Part shown: in pieces, positions 323 through 56,066 of the stretch
Position numbering within the stretch: the stretch's first letter is position 1
How the letters are laid out: every line of letters starts with the position of its first letter
Assembly (NCBI GenBank): GCA_029210175.1
Contig: JARGPL010000027.1
Location: forward strand, 1 to 64,000
Direction: 5' to 3'
From: Minwuia sp.
Lineage (GTDB): Bacteria > Pseudomonadota > Alphaproteobacteria > Minwuiales > Minwuiaceae
DNA length: 64,000 nt
The notes under the pieces: generated by a model
Told to the model about the DNA's origin: nothing
The model's input: only the letters and a program-made list of their open reading frames with translations
The model's database searches: none
Program-made: the position numbers and the translations under genes

Positions 323-493
323 GCCCGCAACCCCGGTCCACTGCGGTCGAGGGCGTTCTTGACAGTGCCGGGAGAAAACCAGCATCTTCGCGCCGCTGTA
401 CGGCAAGGGCCTGAAAAGCGTATGATTCGGGCGACGGAATGAACGATCCGACCGCATGAACGAGGAGCGCGAAAGCGGCGGGCCCGCCGAACA

Positions 494-535
494 CGACACC
501 AACCCGATGACGACACCAACCCGATGACGACACCC
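494..535. repeat. 17-bp tandem repeat in the M23 5' region
   Basis: The unit CGACACCAACCCGATGA occurs twice without a mismatch (494-510 and 511-527), then as an 8-bp partial copy. It lies 22 bp before the start of the M23 peptidase gene. Nothing else was recognised between 323 and 556 apart from the possible TTGACA at 361 and a TATGAT at 421. Confidence 0.85.
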
Positions 536-38617: not shown

Positions 38618-40474
38618 TCAGCCTCCCCGTGTCGCAGCAGCGCTGGCGGTATCGTCGCCCGGTCCGCCTTCGACAATGACCTTGCGGAACATGCCGGAGT
38701 CCGCGTGATAGGACAGGTGGCAATGGAATGCCCATTCACCCGGCGCATCCACCTCGGTCTCCATGTAAACCGTCGTTGCAGGGGCAACGCTGACCACATG
38801 CTTCACCGGATTCCACTTGCCGTTGCCATTGTCCAGGATCGACCACATGCCATGCAGGTGCATCGGATGTGTCATCATGGTGGTGTTGACGAACTTGAAC
38901 CGCACCCGCTCGCCATACTGCAGACGAATGGGTTCGGCATCGGCGTACTTCACCCCGTTGATCGACCAGATGTAGCGCTCCATGTTACCGGTCAGTTCCA
39001 GCTCGATCTCCCGCGTGGCAGGGCGATGGGCATAGAGCGGCTTCTGGGCCTTCAGGTCCGCATAGGACAGGAACCTGCCACCATCCGCTGCCGTCGGTGT
39101 CAGGCCGCTGCCCGGGGCATAGAAGGGATCGGCATCCCCATTGTCCGCTGGCATGCTGTGCCCCATCGCAGCGTGGTCCATCTTCGACTGGTCCATGCCG
39201 GCCATCGGTTTCTCACCACCCATGGCGGAATGATCCATCTTCGAGCGGTCCATGCCAGCCATCGGCTTCTCACCACCCATGGCGGAATGATCCATCTTCG
39301 AGTGGTCCATGCCAGCCATCGGCATGGTGCCATGACCCATTGCAGCGTGGTCCACTTCGCCTGCGGGCTTCGCGCCATGGCCCATCGCGGAATGGTCCAT
39401 ACCATCCATGCCGCCGTGCCCGGCCATGTCACCCATGGTCAACAGCGGCGCCTTGCGCAGTTCTGGTACGGCCGAAGCCATGCCCATCTGCGTGGCCAGC
39501 GTGCCGCGGGCATAGGCCGTGCGGCCCATGGATTCGCCATAGATCGTATAGGGGCGATCATCCTGCGGCTGAACAATGACATCGTAGGTTTCGGCAACCG
39601 CAATGCGGAACTCATCAACCACGACAGGCTGCACGTTGTTGCCGTCCGCCTGCACCACCGTCATCTTCAGTCCGGGGATGCGGATGTCGAAATAGGTCAT
39701 GGCGGACGAATTGATGAAACGCAGGCGTACCCGCTCGCCCGGCTTGAACAGGCCGGTCCAGTTCTGTCCCGGACCCTTGCCATTGATCAACGGCGTGAAG
39801 CCCTGCAGGTCCTCGATATCCGTCGGCATCATCCGCATGCTGCCCCAGTCGCTGCGGTCATCCAGCGCCGGGCCCACACCCTTCTCGGACGCATCGTCGA
39901 AGAAGTCGAACAGCGTCCGCTGCTTTCGGTTGTAGTAGTCCGGCATCATCTTCAGATTCCGCATGATCCGGTCGCCCGAATGCGGATGGGCGTCAGCCAG
40001 CTGGATGACGTAGTCGCGATCATATCGGTAGGGTTCGCGATCTTCCGGTGCGATCACGATGGCCCCATAGGCCCCGTCCGGTTCCTGAAAGCCGGAATGG
40101 CTGTGAAACCAGTAGGTGCCGCTTTGCGTGATCGGGAAGCGGTAGGTGAAGGTCTCGCCCGGTGCGATACCGGGGTAGCTGATCTTCGGCACGCCATCCT
40201 GCTGATAGGGCAGAATCAGGCCGTGCCAGTGAACGGATGTCATCTCGGAGAGATTGTTGGTCACGTTGATCGTGACATCCTCCCCCTCCTTGAACCGGAG
40301 CACCGGTCCGGGGCTCGCCCCGTTGAAACCGATCCCGCTACGGGTGAATTCACCGGTATCAATCGTGACCTCGTCAACGGTCAGATTGTATTCACCGGCC
40401 TGGGCACCGCCTGCGGCGGCAAGTGCCAGACCGGACCCGAGCACAGCGGCCCGGAGCATCTTGGCTGGATACAT
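38618..40474 (-). CDS. copA: Multicopper oxidase CopA
   Basis: The 618-residue periplasmic oxidase has copper motifs HWHG and WFHSHSG in the N-terminal cupredoxin domain, and HPMHLHG and HCHLSYHADSGM at the C-terminus. A methionine/histidine-rich linker near residues 355-450 contains a 19-residue unit repeated in tandem (MAGMDxSKMDHSAMGGEKP). It oxidises Cu(I) and binds copper. The signal peptide lacks an obvious twin arginine, unlike many CopA proteins. The ATG at 40474 follows AGGA and starts the signal peptide. Confidence 0.95.
   Translation of the reverse strand: MYPAKMLRAAVLGSGLALAAAGGAQAGEYNLTVDEVTIDTGEFTRSGIGFNGASPGPVLRFKEGEDVTINVTNNLSEMTSVHWHGLILPYQQDGVPKISYPGIAPGETFTYRFPITQSGTYWFHSHSGFQEPDGAYGAIVIAPEDREPYRYDRDYVIQLADAHPHSGDRIMRNLKMMPDYYNRKQRTLFDFFDDASEKGVGPALDDRSDWGSMRMMPTDIEDLQGFTPLINGKGPGQNWTGLFKPGERVRLRFINSSAMTYFDIRIPGLKMTVVQADGNNVQPVVVDEFRIAVAETYDVIVQPQDDRPYTIYGESMGRTAYARGTLATQMGMASAVPELRKAPLLTMGDMAGHGGMDGMDHSAMGHGAKPAGEVDHAAMGHGTMPMAGMDHSKMDHSAMGGEKPMAGMDRSKMDHSAMGGEKPMAGMDQSKMDHAAMGHSMPADNGDADPFYAPGSGLTPTAADGGRFLSYADLKAQKPLYAHRPATREIELELTGNMERYIWSINGVKYADAEPIRLQYGERVRFKFVNTTMMTHPMHLHGMWSILDNGNGKWNPVKHVVSVAPATTVYMETEVDAPGEWAFHCHLSYHADSGMFRKVIVEGGPGDDTASAAATRGG
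39201..39314 (-). repeat. 57-bp tandem repeat coding the CopA Met/His-rich linker
   Basis: Two near-identical 57-bp units (39201-39257 and 39258-39314) are flanked on both sides by partial, more divergent copies. The length is a multiple of three, so copy number changes would add or remove whole 19-residue copper-binding units. Confidence 0.85.
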
Positions 40475-49202: not shown

Positions 49203-50531
49203 TCAATAGACTTCCAGATATCGCGCGCACTGGTCTTCAGGTGACAGGCCATCCAGCACGGCCAGTTCGCCACGCTTGTGGGCCTGATAGACGGCGACCA
49301 CTTCCTCACCGAACCAGCTCGTGATCGCGGCCTCCCCCGCCATCAGCTTCAGGGCTTCGTCGAGGCTGGTGGGCAGCCGGGCAATCCCCATGGCCGCCAG
49401 TTCCTCGGCACTCAGCACACTCAGGTCGGCTTCTGTGACCTTCGGCGCGGCAAGTTCGCGGGCGATGCCTTCGGTTCCGGCATGAATGATGGCCGCGAGC
49501 TGCAGGTACGGACTGGCCGCGGCGTCACAGGCCCGGATTTCCAGGTTGAACTGGCGGGCGATGGCAAGCGGGTCCAGCGCGGTCACCGGACAGATCCTCA
49601 CCGATGCTTCCCGGTCACGCAGGCCGAGATTGTTGTAGGCCGCGCTCCAGCGGTGCGGTGTCAGCCGCAGGTAGGAAATCGCGCTCGGCGCCAGCAGAGC
49701 CAGGATTGACGGCAGGAAGGTCGTCAGTCCCGCAGCAAACGATGCTGCGGCTTCCGACAGGCCGGTTTCCGTGTCCGGATCATAGGTCACCGGCTTGCCA
49801 TCGCGGTCATTCAGGCTGACATGCACATGCACCCCATTGCCGACACCGGCAGGGGTCCTGATCGGGGTGAAGGTCGCACGACGCCGACCCTCCGCCGCAG
49901 CGACCCGGACCATTTCACGCAGCATGGTCGCCTGGTCAGCCGCCCCCAGACCATCGGACGGTTTCATCGTCACTTCGAACTGGTCGGCCCCGAATTCCTT
50001 CATGAAGGTGTCGGGGCGCAGGTTGTTGCGTGCCATCAACTGGAAAATCCGCCGCCCCATGGTCGCGCCGCTGCGGGCACCGCCCAGCGAATAGGCGGTT
50101 CCGCTGTCGCCCGATGCGCCCTCTGCGCTGTCGAGAAGCTGGAATTCATGCTCGAAGGCGGCGGTGACATTCAGACCCGCAACCTCATCCAGCCGACGCA
50201 GCGCCTGCTTCAGGATCGACCGGGTGCAGCAGTTCCATGGGTCGCCTTCCAGCGTGACGATGTCGCCCAGCATCACCTGTTCCACAGGCTCACCACCGGC
50301 ATCCCGGATGATGTAGCCGGCATTCGGATCGGGGATCAGCGCCAGATCACCCAGCGCGCCGAAGGGGCTGTCGGCAATGACATCAAAACAGTTGATCATG
50401 ACGTTGGTCGGGGTCCAGCCGATACCGCGCTTCAGACGCGTCGGCAGGTCGCTCTCAGGGAACCCCTTGCCCCTGACCTGTCCGGCAATATCGGAACAGC
50501 AGGCCATGATGATCTGATCGCTGGTACCCAT
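49203..50531 (-). CDS. Glutamine synthetase family protein (gamma-glutamyl ligase-like)
   Basis: The 442-residue protein has GS landmarks in modified form: FEHEFQLLD (metal site), NGVHVHVSL (ATP/metal), and ISYLRLTPHRWSAAYNNLGL with RDREASVRICP for the glutamate/phosphate site. Departures from GlnA suggest a GlnT/PuuA-type enzyme that ligates glutamate to an amine. The ATG at 50531 follows TGGAG; the upstream extension runs into the divergent promoter region. It is divergent from the cyclic-amide cluster, with 133 bp between start codons, and may act on its product. Confidence 0.85.
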   Translation of the reverse strand: MGTSDQIIMACCSDIAGQVRGKGFPESDLPTRLKRGIGWTPTNVMINCFDVIADSPFGALGDLALIPDPNAGYIIRDAGGEPVEQVMLGDIVTLEGDPWNCCTRSILKQALRRLDEVAGLNVTAAFEHEFQLLDSAEGASGDSGTAYSLGGARSGATMGRRIFQLMARNNLRPDTFMKEFGADQFEVTMKPSDGLGAADQATMLREMVRVAAAEGRRRATFTPIRTPAGVGNGVHVHVSLNDRDGKPVTYDPDTETGLSEAAASFAAGLTTFLPSILALLAPSAISYLRLTPHRWSAAYNNLGLRDREASVRICPVTALDPLAIARQFNLEIRACDAAASPYLQLAAIIHAGTEGIARELAAPKVTEADLSVLSAEELAAMGIARLPTSLDEALKLMAGEAAITSWFGEEVVAVYQAHKRGELAVLDGLSPEDQCARYLEVY

Positions 50532-50630
50532 GACATACGCTCCAGAAAGAAGACACGCGTGCGGCTGATACCGCAGCAGTTGCAGGGAATCATCCCGCCG
50601 TCGCATAGTCCAGTCAAACTGGAGTAACCC

Positions 50631-50680
50631 ATGCTGACTGCCGCACCATGCTGACCGCCGCACCTTGCTGACCGCCGCAG
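50631..50680 (+). repeat. Triplicated 17-bp start region
   Basis: Three tandem copies of a 17-bp unit (50631-50647, 50648-50664, 50665-50681) each begin with a start-like codon followed by CTGAC(T/C)GCCGCA. Copies one and two start with ATG and copy three with TTG. Since 17 is not a multiple of three, only the third copy is in frame with the gene. The first two read into TGA after seven codons. GGAG lies 6 nt before the first ATG only. Confidence 0.9.
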
Positions 50681-51420
50681 ATGCCGATCCCGTCCTGTTT
50701 CACCGCGCCGGACCTGATGGACCGCAAGGCGGCCGGGTCCTGCTGACATGCGAACATGGTGGCAGGGCGATCCCTGTCGGCATGGGTGATCTGGGTATTC
50801 CAGCCGCAGAAATGGACCGCCACATCGCCTGGGACATCGGCGCCATGGCGCTTTCCCTGGCGCTGATGAAACGTGTTTCAGGGCGGCTTGTGGCACAACA
50901 CTACAGTCGGCTGGTGATCGACTGCAATCGCGGCCCCCAGTCCCCTGATCTGGTGCCGAGCATCAGCGACGGCACCCATATTCCGGCCAACACCGCCCTT
51001 TCAGCGCCGGATATAGACGCGCGGATGGCCGCCATCCACGCGCCGTTTCATGCCCGGATTGCCGGGGAAATTCAGCAACTTCGGCCTGCATTGCTGGTCT
51101 CTATCCACAGTTTCACGCCGGTCATGACCGGGGTCGCCAGACCCATGCACGCCGGGTTCCTGTCCAACCGCATGCCTGCCGTATCGGATTGTTTCATGGC
51201 ATCGTTCGGCCGCCATGCACCGGATCTGGTCGTGGCGCAGAACGCCCCCTACGAAGTCGACGATATCAGCGATTTCACCGTGCCCGTGCATGGCGAAGCC
51301 AATGGCCTGCCTCATGTGCTGGTAGAGGTCCGGAACGACCAGTTGCAGGATGAACAGGGCATTGAACGCTGGGCCGACCTGCTCGCCCGCGCCATCGACG
51401 ATGTGGAGACCAGCCCGTGA
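50665..51420 (+). CDS. N-formylglutamate amidohydrolase family protein
   Basis: The 251-residue zinc hydrolase is of the HutG/FGase type: LLTCEHGGRAIP near residue 28 (zinc His), DWDxGA-like IAWDIGAMAL, HYSRLVIDCNR and LLVSIHSFTPVM. It cleaves an N-acyl amide such as N-formylglutamate. The only in-frame start in the conserved position is TTG at 50665, in the third copy of a 17-bp repeat. Translation may therefore be low or depend on coupling with the short frames before it. It overlaps the isochorismatase-like gene by 4 bp. Confidence 0.85.
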   Translation: MLTAADADPVLFHRAGPDGPQGGRVLLTCEHGGRAIPVGMGDLGIPAAEMDRHIAWDIGAMALSLALMKRVSGRLVAQHYSRLVIDCNRGPQSPDLVPSISDGTHIPANTALSAPDIDARMAAIHAPFHARIAGEIQQLRPALLVSIHSFTPVMTGVARPMHAGFLSNRMPAVSDCFMASFGRHAPDLVVAQNAPYEVDDISDFTVPVHGEANGLPHVLVEVRNDQLQDEQGIERWADLLARAIDDVETSP

Positions 51421-52076
51421 CCCGGAACCACCCCACCACCCGCGACCTGCCGCTCGACCCGGATGTGTCCGCCCTGCTGTTCATCGACGTCCAGAACTTC
51501 AGCGCCGACCGAAAGGGGTCGGAATACGATGGCATGGACGCGGCCTGGTTCGAGGCGCATTACGGCGCGTTCTTCCGCAACTTCGAGCGCACCGTGCTGC
51601 CCAACATGCAGCGCCTGCAGTCCGGTTGCCGCAAGGCGGGCATCGAGGTCATGTACACGGTGATCGAGAGCCTGACCCTGGACGGGCGCGACCGCAGCCT
51701 CGATTACAAGATCACCGGCTTCAACGTGCCGAAGGGATCGCGCGATGCGCAGGTCATCGACGGGCTTGCCCCGGCGGGGGACGAGATCGTGATTCCGAAG
51801 ACGTCGTCCAGCGTCTTCATCTCCACCAACATCGACTATGTCCTGCGCAATCTCGGGGTTCGGCAACTGGTGATCAGCGGTCTGCTGACAGACCAGTGTG
51901 TCGATTCTGCCGTCCGCGATGCCTGCGACATGGGGTATCTGGTGACCGTCGTGACGGATGCCTGCGGCACCCGCACCACGGAACGGCATGAGGCATCCCT
52001 GCGCCTCAATCGTGGCTATTGCCGACAGGTCACGACAGACGCCTTGCTGGCAGAGTTGGACAGAAGCGCACTTTGA
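51417..52076 (+). CDS. Isochorismatase-fold cysteine hydrolase
   Basis: The 219-residue hydrolase has the family triad: D in LLFIDVQNF near residue 24, K in IVIPKTSSSVF near residue 124, and the nucleophile C in LLTDQCVDS near residue 161. Relatives hydrolyse carbamoyl or amide bonds (N-carbamoylsarcosine, ureidoacrylate, biuret). It starts at GTG overlapping the preceding stop and is followed after 103 bp by hyuB. This suggests it removes the carbamoyl or amide group after ring opening. Confidence 0.9.
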   Translation: MTRNHPTTRDLPLDPDVSALLFIDVQNFSADRKGSEYDGMDAAWFEAHYGAFFRNFERTVLPNMQRLQSGCRKAGIEVMYTVIESLTLDGRDRSLDYKITGFNVPKGSRDAQVIDGLAPAGDEIVIPKTSSSVFISTNIDYVLRNLGVRQLVISGLLTDQCVDSAVRDACDMGYLVTVVTDACGTRTTERHEASLRLNRGYCRQVTTDALLAELDRSAL

Positions 52077-52179: not shown

Positions 52180-53937
52180 ATGTCAGCCGTTGATCCGATT
52201 ACCCTTTCCGTCGTGCGCGGTGTTCTGGAAACCACTCAGCGGGAGATGACGCTGGCGCTGGAGAAGACGGCGCGGTCGAGCGTGTTCAATCTGGCGCATG
52301 ACTATTCCAACGCCCTGTTCAACCATGTGCCCGAGATGATCATGCAGGGGCAGGACATTCCGATTCACCTGGGCAGCCTGATCCCGGCAATGAAATGTGT
52401 CGCCGGGTATTTCGGCGACGACATTCATCCCGGTGACGTGATCCTGCACAATGATCCCGCCTACATGGGCAGCCACATGATCGACACCTGCATGTACAAG
52501 CCGGTGTTCTACAAGGGCGAACTGGTGTTCTGGACGGTCTGCAAGGGCCATCTGACCGACATCGGCGGCCCGGTCCCCGCCGGCTACAACCCCGATGCGA
52601 CGGAGATCTATGCGGAGGGTCTGCGAATCCCGCCGGTGAAGATCTACGACAAGGGCGTGCGCCGCTATGACGTGGTCAACCTGCTGCTGACCAACCTGCG
52701 CGCCCGGCGCGACCAGGAAGGTGACCTGAACGCCCAGCTCGGTGCTGTTCAGGTGGGTGAGCGGAACCTGATCGCGCTGCTGGACAAGTATGGTCTGAAG
52801 CAGGTCCAGGACTGCATCGCTGAACTGATGGACATGGCCGACCTCCAGATGCGCAGCCTGATCGCGACGGTGCCGGACGGCACCTACGTCGGCAAGTCCT
52901 CGGTCGAAGATGCCGGCCACGGCTTTGGTGAGCTGGAGATCACGGCGACGGTGACGGTCACCGGCGACAGCTGTCACGTGGCGATCGACAGTCCACCCCA
53001 GATTCCCTACTTCATCAATTCCTACGAGGGCAATTCCTTCTCCGGCGTCTATCTGGGCATCATGATGTTCGCGCAGGTGCCACCGCCCTACAACGAAGGG
53101 CTCTATCGCTGCGTGTCGGTCGACATGGGCGCGAAGGGCACGCTGTGCAACGCGGAAGAACCCGCGCCACACATGAACTGCACCACGACACCGATGGAAA
53201 CACTGACAGACGCAGTCCGCCTGGCATTCGAGGCCGCGGCCCCCGACAAGGTCTCGGCGGGCTGGGGCCATGCCAACGGCTGCAACATTGCCGGCTGGGA
53301 CACCCGCCATGATGAGGAATACGTGTCGATGATCCTGGCGTCGATCATCTCCGGTGCCGGGGCGACGCCGACGCAGGATGGCTGGCACGCATGCGGCCCG
53401 GAATGCTGTTTTGGTGCACTTACATCGGGCGATATCGAGCTGCTGGAATATTCCTATCCGATCGTCATCCACCAATACAGCCTGATGACCGACAGCGGCG
53501 GTGCGGGCAAGTTCCGTGGCGGTTCCGGCACCTGCTGGGAAGTGGAGCCGCTGGACAAGCCCATGGACTTCATCACCTTTGGTGAAGGCCGCCACAACCC
53601 GGCATCGGGTGCGGCAGGCGCATTCTCCCGCATGGTGGAACCCAAGGTCGGACGGATCGAGATCAGCCGTGGCGGCAAGGTCGAGACCATCAAGAACAAC
53701 GTCATCGAAGTGATCAACCCCGGTGAGCGGGCAGCCAACAAGAACCCTGGCGGCGGCGGTTACGGCAATGCCTATGAACGCGACGTCGACGCCGTGATCT
53801 GGGACGTTCGCAACGGCCTGGTATCCATCGAGGGGGCGGCACGCGACTATGGCGTCATCTTCTCCGACCCGGCGAAGCTGGCCGTCGACATGGATGCGAC
53901 GGCCGCCACACGGGGTGCGACCATCGCCGCCGAATAG
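52180..53937 (+). CDS. hyuB: Hydantoinase B/oxoprolinase family subunit (HyuB)
   Basis: The 585-residue subunit has the HyuB/acetone-carboxylase-alpha core: ITLSVVRGVLE at the start, HPGDVILHNDPAYMGSHM near residue 85 and the glycine-rich NKNPGGGGYGN near the end. With HyuA it performs ATP-dependent opening or carboxylation of a cyclic or ketone substrate. TGGAGGA precedes the ATG; the longer frame overlaps the isochorismatase-like gene. The hyuA gene follows after 50 bp. Confidence 0.93.
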   Translation: MSAVDPITLSVVRGVLETTQREMTLALEKTARSSVFNLAHDYSNALFNHVPEMIMQGQDIPIHLGSLIPAMKCVAGYFGDDIHPGDVILHNDPAYMGSHMIDTCMYKPVFYKGELVFWTVCKGHLTDIGGPVPAGYNPDATEIYAEGLRIPPVKIYDKGVRRYDVVNLLLTNLRARRDQEGDLNAQLGAVQVGERNLIALLDKYGLKQVQDCIAELMDMADLQMRSLIATVPDGTYVGKSSVEDAGHGFGELEITATVTVTGDSCHVAIDSPPQIPYFINSYEGNSFSGVYLGIMMFAQVPPPYNEGLYRCVSVDMGAKGTLCNAEEPAPHMNCTTTPMETLTDAVRLAFEAAAPDKVSAGWGHANGCNIAGWDTRHDEEYVSMILASIISGAGATPTQDGWHACGPECCFGALTSGDIELLEYSYPIVIHQYSLMTDSGGAGKFRGGSGTCWEVEPLDKPMDFITFGEGRHNPASGAAGAFSRMVEPKVGRIEISRGGKVETIKNNVIEVINPGERAANKNPGGGGYGNAYERDVDAVIWDVRNGLVSIEGAARDYGVIFSDPAKLAVDMDATAATRGATIAAE

Positions 53938-53987
53938 GCGCAAGGACAAGACCGACAGCGACTGATCACGCCCCGCGTGGAGGAAAC

Positions 53988-56066
53988 ATGCGCACCAAAT
54001 ATCGTCTCGGCGTTGATGCCGGAGGCACGTTCACCGATTTCGTTCTGGCTGACAGGGATGGCACGGTCCACCTGTTCAAGGCGCTGTCGACACCGCATGA
54101 CCCGACCAAAGCGATCTCGAACGGTCTGAAACTGATCTCGGAAGCGGTGGGCCAGACCGCGGAGGAGATCATCTCCCAGTGTGACCTGTGCATCAACGGC
54201 ACGACGGTCGGCCTGAACGCGCTGATCCAGCACAAGGGCGCAAAGGTCGGTCTGATCTGCACCAGGGGGCATGAGGATTCGATCGAGATCCGGCTGGGGC
54301 ACAAGGAAGACGGCTATCGCTACGACGCCACCTATCCGCCAGCAAAGATGCTGGTGCCGCGTTACCTGCGGCGCGGCGTGTCGGAGCGGGTGGTATCCGA
54401 CGGGTCCGTGATGACACCGCTGAACGAACAGGACGTGCGCGGCGCCTGCGAAATGTTCAGGGCGGAAGGCGTGGAGACGGTCGCGATCTCGTTCGTCTGG
54501 TCCGTGCTGCATCAGGATCACGAGCGCCGGGCAGCCGAGATCGTGCGCGAGATGCTGCCCGATGTCTTCCTGACGGTCGGGTCGGAACTGTACCCGCAGA
54601 TCCGCGAATACACCCGCACGTCCACAGCGATCACCAACGCCTACCTTGGTCCGACCCTGAAGAAGTACGTCGGCGGCATCGATGACTATTTCCGCAATCT
54701 CGGGGCGAAGTACCCGGTGCGGTACTTCCAGTCCAATGGCGGTCTGGCCATCGGGCAGGCCATGTCCGACCGGTCAGTCTATGCCATCAACTCCGGCCCG
54801 GCATCCGCACCGCAGGCCGGTCTCTATGTGTGCAGCCCCTTCGGTCATGACGATGTGATCACCGTCGACATGGGCGGCACGTCATTCGACATCACGCTGA
54901 CCAGCGGCGGCAACACGAACATCAACAAGGACATCGATTTCCTGCGCTATCGCATCGGCGTGCCGATGATCCAGGTGGAGACCCTGGGTGCCGGTGGCGG
55001 CTCCATCGGTCTGATCGACGATCTCGGCCTGCTGCAGGTCGGACCGCAGAGCGCCGGTTCAGATCCGGGGCCAGCCTGTTACGGCAACGGCGGCGATCAG
55101 CCGACCGTGACCGACGCCAATCTGGTCCTCGGCTACGTCAATCCCGATGCCCTGCTTGGCGGTCGGATGAAGCTGGATCGGGAGAAATCCTACACGGCGG
55201 TGAAGGAAAAGATCGCCGATCCGCTGGGGATCAGTGTCGAGCGCGCAGCGCACGGCATGTTCACCATCGTCAACAACAACATGGTCAACGGCATCCGCCG
55301 CGTGTCGGTGGAACGGGGCTACGACCCGCGTGACTTCGTGCTGGTGGCCGCAGGTGGCGCAGGTTCTGCGCACATCACGGCTCTGGCGAAGGAAATGGGG
55401 ATCAGCACGGTGCTGGTGCCGAAGCTGGCATCCGGCCTCTGCGCCTTCGGCCAGATCATTTCCGACGTGAAGTACAACTACATGGCCACCTGCCCATTGC
55501 GACTGGAAGGCGATGCGGCCTACGCCCAGATCAATGACACCTATGCGGATATCGAGGAGACCGGGGTCAAGCATCTGCTGGCTGACGGTTTCGAGAATGA
55601 TCGCATCATGATCCGCCGTCGGATCGACATGCGCTATGTCGGTCAGGTGCACGAATGCTCGGTGGATATCGAGAATTTCACCATCGACGCCGAATCCGTC
55701 GACCAGTTGCGCAATGCGTTCCATGCCAAGCATGAACAGCTCTACACCTACTCCGAGAAGAACACCCCGATCGAGGTGGTGAACCTGGAAAGCACCCTGT
55801 ATGGCCGTGTTGACCGCCCTGACATGCCGAAACTGGCAGCGGGGGCCGATGTCGCGGATGCCATCAAGTCGCACCGCCCGATGATCTTCACCGCCGACGG
55901 TGCTGCCATCGATGGCCCGGTCTACGACGGGTCCAGACTTGGTGCAGGTGCGGTCATTGCCGGCCCGGCCGTCATCGAGGAAACCACGACCACCATCGTC
56001 ATTGAACCGGATTGGCAGACCTCGCTTCATGAGAGCGGCAGCTATATCCTGACACGTACCGACTGA
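53988..56066 (+). CDS. hyuA: Hydantoinase A/oxoprolinase family subunit (HyuA)
   Basis: The 692-residue ATP-binding subunit has the N-terminal phosphate loop LGVDAGGTFTDFVLAD. The actin-like core has TVDMGGTSFDITL near residue 300, VAAGGAGSAHITALAKEMG near residue 455, and a C-terminal beta domain ending before residue 692. It phosphorylates the substrate carbonyl for HyuB. Known pairs open N-methylhydantoin, 5-oxoproline or caprolactam, or carboxylate acetone; the sequence does not decide. AGGAAA precedes the ATG. Confidence 0.93.
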   Translation: MRTKYRLGVDAGGTFTDFVLADRDGTVHLFKALSTPHDPTKAISNGLKLISEAVGQTAEEIISQCDLCINGTTVGLNALIQHKGAKVGLICTRGHEDSIEIRLGHKEDGYRYDATYPPAKMLVPRYLRRGVSERVVSDGSVMTPLNEQDVRGACEMFRAEGVETVAISFVWSVLHQDHERRAAEIVREMLPDVFLTVGSELYPQIREYTRTSTAITNAYLGPTLKKYVGGIDDYFRNLGAKYPVRYFQSNGGLAIGQAMSDRSVYAINSGPASAPQAGLYVCSPFGHDDVITVDMGGTSFDITLTSGGNTNINKDIDFLRYRIGVPMIQVETLGAGGGSIGLIDDLGLLQVGPQSAGSDPGPACYGNGGDQPTVTDANLVLGYVNPDALLGGRMKLDREKSYTAVKEKIADPLGISVERAAHGMFTIVNNNMVNGIRRVSVERGYDPRDFVLVAAGGAGSAHITALAKEMGISTVLVPKLASGLCAFGQIISDVKYNYMATCPLRLEGDAAYAQINDTYADIEETGVKHLLADGFENDRIMIRRRIDMRYVGQVHECSVDIENFTIDAESVDQLRNAFHAKHEQLYTYSEKNTPIEVVNLESTLYGRVDRPDMPKLAAGADVADAIKSHRPMIFTADGAAIDGPVYDGSRLGAGAVIAGPAVIEETTTTIVIEPDWQTSLHESGSYILTRTD

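Follow-up and report, generated by a model that had tools for sequence, protein, structure and literature searches.

A lineage-specific 17-bp tandem array at the start codon of an amidohydrolase gene in Minwuia sp. probably acts as a down-mutation

The start region of one amidohydrolase gene of Minwuia sp. is present in three tandem copies, and this raises the question of what such an array does to the gene that it begins, in particular whether its copy number could turn expression on and off. We analyzed the locus within a window of 64,000 nucleotides, the whole stretch of DNA studied here, in which the three head-to-tail 17-bp copies (TRF score 88, 94% matches) are directly followed at their 3′ end by the body of the gene. 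The genes and repeat copies concerned are the following.

49203 to 50534, reverse strand: divergent glutamine-synthetase-like gene, start approximate
50629 to 50645, forward strand: repeat copy 1, ancestral-looking, with ACT as in all relatives
50646 to 50662, forward strand: repeat copy 2, from TRF and direct reading
50663 to 50679, forward strand: repeat copy 3, with TTG in place of ATG, in frame with the amidohydrolase gene
50665 to 51420, forward strand: N-formylglutamate amidohydrolase family gene (PF05013), 251 aa, start TTG 50665
51417 to 52076, forward strand: isochorismatase-family hydrolase, whose GTG start overlaps the amidohydrolase stop by 4 nt, with its own GGAG site

The amidohydrolase matches PF05013 at 128.3 bits, above the Pfam gathering cut-off of 28.9, and lies below the HutG equivalog cut-off (25.3 bits vs 278.75). 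In the divergent intergenic region, a promoter scan returned one minus-strand match only and was not informative. Further downstream, a HyuB/HyuA-like pair (window 52183-56066; 1108 and 1249 bits vs NCBIfam cut-offs of 1000 for caprolactamase beta/alpha) adjoins PxpA and AccC homologs, and the pathway is possibly one for a lactam, not for a hydantoin or oxoproline.

The units of the array read, in order, CCATGCTGACTGCCGCA / CCATGCTGACCGCCGCA / CCTTGCTGACCGCCGCA, and they bear out the three copies at the gene start described in a sequence-only reading of this DNA, which had given a range (50625-50681) 2-4 bp too wide. Two differences separate them, ACT in copy 1 for ACC in copies 2 and 3, and TTG for ATG in copy 3, with a mean pairwise divergence of 0.078 per site. 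The motif CCWTGCTGACYGCCGCA occurs 3 times in the 4.09-Mb genome, each time within 50629-50679, and its reversed control 0 times; a genome-wide family of the repeat is thus ruled out, with zero copies elsewhere. Chance similarity of the three copies was excluded by TRF and by block-shuffled sequence of the same genome (3 x 424 kb), which held no comparable 3x17 array. As background we used 424 kb of the genome itself (the 64-kb window and 18 sampled pieces of 20 kb), where TRF found 40 arrays at a score of at least 50, of which nine have a non-triplet period; three non-triplet arrays reach three copies at 90% self-match, the start-codon array included. We conclude that the array is genuine and uncommon, but minisatellites of this size are normal in this genome. 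In period, copy number and divergence it resembles other arrays there, ordinary minisatellites or short tandem duplications, and it differs from them in covering a start codon. The genome is a draft in 43 contigs, which leaves some room for an assembly or sequencing artefact, but we regard this as extremely improbable, given that 51 bp are short enough for one short read, that differences distinguish the copies and that the array is embedded in unique sequence.

The repeated start codons open the following frames, preceded by one Shine-Dalgarno-like site.

50620 to 50625, forward strand: Shine-Dalgarno-like site TGGAGT, with its core GGAG at 50621-50624 and a 6-nt spacing to the ATG of copy 1, duplex energy -5.9 kcal/mol
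50631 to 50654, forward strand: mini-ORF 1, MLTAAPC*, from ATG 50631 to TGA 50652-54, direct reading
50648 to 50671, forward strand: mini-ORF 2, ATG CTG ACC GCC GCA CCT TGC TGA, ending at TGA 50669-71, direct reading

Direct reading confirms what had been stated of these frames, namely that copies one and two end at TGA after seven codons and that copy three alone, with TTG, is in frame with the gene. The frame is open from TTG 50665 to 51420 and closed upstream by TGA 50635-37, and this TTG is its only ATG, GTG or TTG before the conserved TCEHGG motif. The claim that the sole good ribosome binding site (GGAG) lies before copy one also holds, the anti-Shine-Dalgarno duplex energy being -5.9 kcal/mol for copy 1 vs +0.7 for copies 2 and 3. 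Mini-ORF 2 overlaps mini-ORF 1 by 7 nt (ATGCTGA), and the TTG start of the gene overlaps mini-ORF 2 by the same length (TTGCTGA), such that stop and next start overlap at both steps, the geometry of termination-reinitiation coupled ORFs. Coupled re-initiation from the two mini-frames, which had been suggested as an alternative to a switch, is thus allowed by the geometry, each start overlapping the previous stop. A +1 frameshift from copy 1 into the gene at TGC TGA C was rejected by reasoning only, because UGC to GCU re-pairing in the P site is implausible and no stimulatory Shine-Dalgarno-like site is present. The predicted RNA fold around the three starts was not informative (mean unpaired probabilities of 0.44, 0.38 and 0.55, vs 0.45 in the closest relative, G005).

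Orthologs of the amidohydrolase were found in four other species among the nine genomes compared, which cover the family and order, include that of the window and represent each species once: G005/L034 (86%), G002/L035 (70%), G003/L036 (68%) and G001/L008 (67%). The isochorismatase-family gene adjoins the ortholog in all four. In every one of them the start occurs once, as an in-frame ATG-CTG-ACT-GCC preceded by a Shine-Dalgarno site of equal duplex energy, and the closest, G005/L034, has the identical GGAG-6 nt-ATG spacing. Its start region reads CTGGAGTGCCCGATGCTGACTGCCGCCGATGCCGATCCC, where the window has CTGGAGTAACC, overlapping into three units, and then GATGCCGATCCC; at the start codon, between collinear flanks, the window thus carries exactly 34 bp more, equal to two additional units. 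Adjacent direct copies that are missing from the orthologous site of relatives are what a short tandem duplication leaves. It had been predicted that one copy would put an ATG directly behind the Shine-Dalgarno site, and this arrangement exists naturally in the four orthologs, with the window's own spacing kept in the one-copy leader of G005/L034. Copy number is therefore one in the four orthologs and three in this one genome, with no sharing of the array, and since a single copy occurs in all four genus orthologs it is most simply ancestral and the three-copy state derived. The sister-genus homolog L009 has no array either, which together with the orthologs rules out a conserved array; among viral contigs, no relatives were found.

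Two other members of the genus Minwuia, G004 and G006, have neither an amidohydrolase ortholog nor the adjacent isochorismatase-family gene, and G008, of the sister genus, has the two genes side by side; they seem to come and go as a unit. The amidohydrolase leaders of G002, G003 and G001 (L006, L007 and L008, at about 1390-1480) contain an imperfect palindrome of ~90 bp, GTTCC..TCCCTCTCCCC ... GGGGAGAGGGA..GGAAC, which separates the start codon from the conserved upstream region. This repeat is dispersed, with 67-76 matches in each of these three genomes, 26 in the window genome, 5 in G005 and 16 in the sister genus (G008), counts in which one place may be scored on both strands, the element being palindromic. 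It looks like a MITE or REP-type element.

Based on these comparisons, we propose that the array is probably a lineage-specific tandem expansion, from one copy to three, that lowers translation of the amidohydrolase, in other words a down-mutation (hypomorph) and not an evolved switch. Ordinary slippage, or a short tandem duplication, affecting the gene's first 17 bp would have added the 34 bp. The extra units separate the real gene from its Shine-Dalgarno site and deprive it of the in-frame ATG that this site served, and the in-frame copy 3 has undergone a further change from ATG to TTG. As copy 1 retains the Shine-Dalgarno site at an unchanged distance, ribosomes should still load at ATG 50631, where they would make a 7-residue peptide; the gene would then be reached via two successive termination-reinitiation steps over the 7-nt overlaps, without a Shine-Dalgarno site, or alternatively by weak direct initiation at TTG 50665. 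Coupling is best at spacings of -4 to +3 nt and falls as the overlap grows (2025 review, PMC12548453), and when the Shine-Dalgarno site was removed in five E. coli pairs, re-initiation dropped by 60-90% in three of them and was lost altogether in one (Huber et al. 2019, PMC6728339). From these distances and losses, we infer that amidohydrolase output would be substantially lowered. The isochorismatase-family gene keeps its own Shine-Dalgarno site and, with its GGAG and the 4-nt overlap, may be less affected. Initiation at TTG independent of a Shine-Dalgarno site may be efficient in this organism, which would count against a down-mutation.

The arrangement is like known termination-reinitiation coupling (PMC6728339, PMC12548453) in that starts overlap the preceding stop and the upstream frame has a Shine-Dalgarno site. 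It differs in the overlap, 7 nt here and usually 1 or 4 nt, in the re-start without a Shine-Dalgarno site, and in the origin of the mini-ORFs, which duplicate the start of the gene itself. One could read the two mini-ORFs as a fixed, selected attenuator that sets or regulates the level of the gene via chained termination-reinitiation, and both the exact stop-start overlaps and the Shine-Dalgarno site kept before copy 1 at unchanged spacing would agree with this. However, such overlaps arise automatically, because the non-triplet 17-bp unit contains ATGCTGA, and the array is conserved in no second genome, which makes selection for attenuation unlikely.

The sequence-only reading had proposed a phase-variable switch, in which slippage-driven change of copy number turns the gene on and off. 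One copy would indeed restore an ATG with a Shine-Dalgarno site, and the array shares with non-triplet contingency loci (PMC4235727) a non-triplet unit at a gene start whose loss would restore a good start. The frame logic argues otherwise: the ATG of copy 1 is open into the gene at n=1, and at n=2, 3, 4 and 5 it always stops after MLTAAPC, at the TGA of the second copy, so a change from three copies to two or four cannot switch the gene on. The last copy is in frame with the gene at every copy number, and the on/off alternation by single units that characterizes a contingency locus is absent. Repeat number is a main determinant of mutability in repeat-mediated phase variation (review, PMC4235727); three imperfect copies are few for a contingency locus, and the substitutions between them may make frequent expansion and contraction less likely. 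The array further differs from such loci in belonging to a metabolic gene and in having no known variation, with one genome per species and no relative that shares it. With three diverged copies in a single genome, and only collapse to n=1 restoring the start, the switch is not supported and we consider it extremely unlikely. Very unlikely too is a start-codon ladder, in which repeat number would act as a translation dial, with output falling as r^(n-1), and full expression would return upon a rare collapse; if true, ribosomes loaded at the Shine-Dalgarno site would face one more termination-reinitiation step before the gene with each extra 17-bp copy.

Other tandem repeats were noticed in this genome. 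A second 17-bp array (window 493-534) has 2.5 identical copies of ACGACACCAACCCGATG a short distance upstream of position 557, where an M23-type peptidase ORF starts, and every ATGACGACACC copy opens a short frame; it was dropped as a parallel case, since it lies upstream of the ORF start and the leaders of G001-G003 have no counterpart. A 57-bp repeat occupies window 39177-39323 (2.6 copies, 94% matches). Four copies of the 20-bp unit CAGGTAGGGAGACAGGCTGG, 98% alike, lie between two ORFs at L126 12254-12333 (G000 contig C3), and are a better candidate for copy-number variation than the start-codon array.

We also considered effective silencing of the gene by the array, in which case TTG would support no productive initiation and the gene, despite its intact sequence, would be a recent pseudogene. 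A TTG without a Shine-Dalgarno site, the ATG to TTG change in the sole in-frame copy, a paralogue of 37% identity at G000:C24:129905 and the lack of an ortholog in two congeners (G004, G006) would all fit, and silencing is a real, if minor, possibility. Against it, the frame runs for 251 codons without stop or frameshift, although the duplication may be too young for visible decay, and polarised changes on the window branch number 21 synonymous and 4 non-synonymous. The dN/dS of the amidohydrolase vs G005 is 0.10, like that of neighbouring genes, at a synonymous divergence of 0.89. All relatives have ATG as start and ACT as codon 3, and the expansion can be dated very roughly to the last tenth of the branch, from two substitutions and with a wide interval. 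Most of the dN/dS record thus predates the array; it shows that the gene was needed and is not proof of continued good expression.

Taken together, these results on the array give no evidence of a new regulatory system. The literature searched held no description of a start-codon tandem duplication of this type, which is weak evidence of absence. The locus is a clear natural example of a gene uncoupled from its ribosome-binding site by a short non-triplet tandem duplication, which automatically creates overlapping mini-ORFs, and close relatives still show the ancestral state. A plain TTG start is what gene callers would annotate here, masking the duplication, and the array could serve to test how well bacteria re-initiate across a series of 7-nt overlaps that lack a Shine-Dalgarno site.
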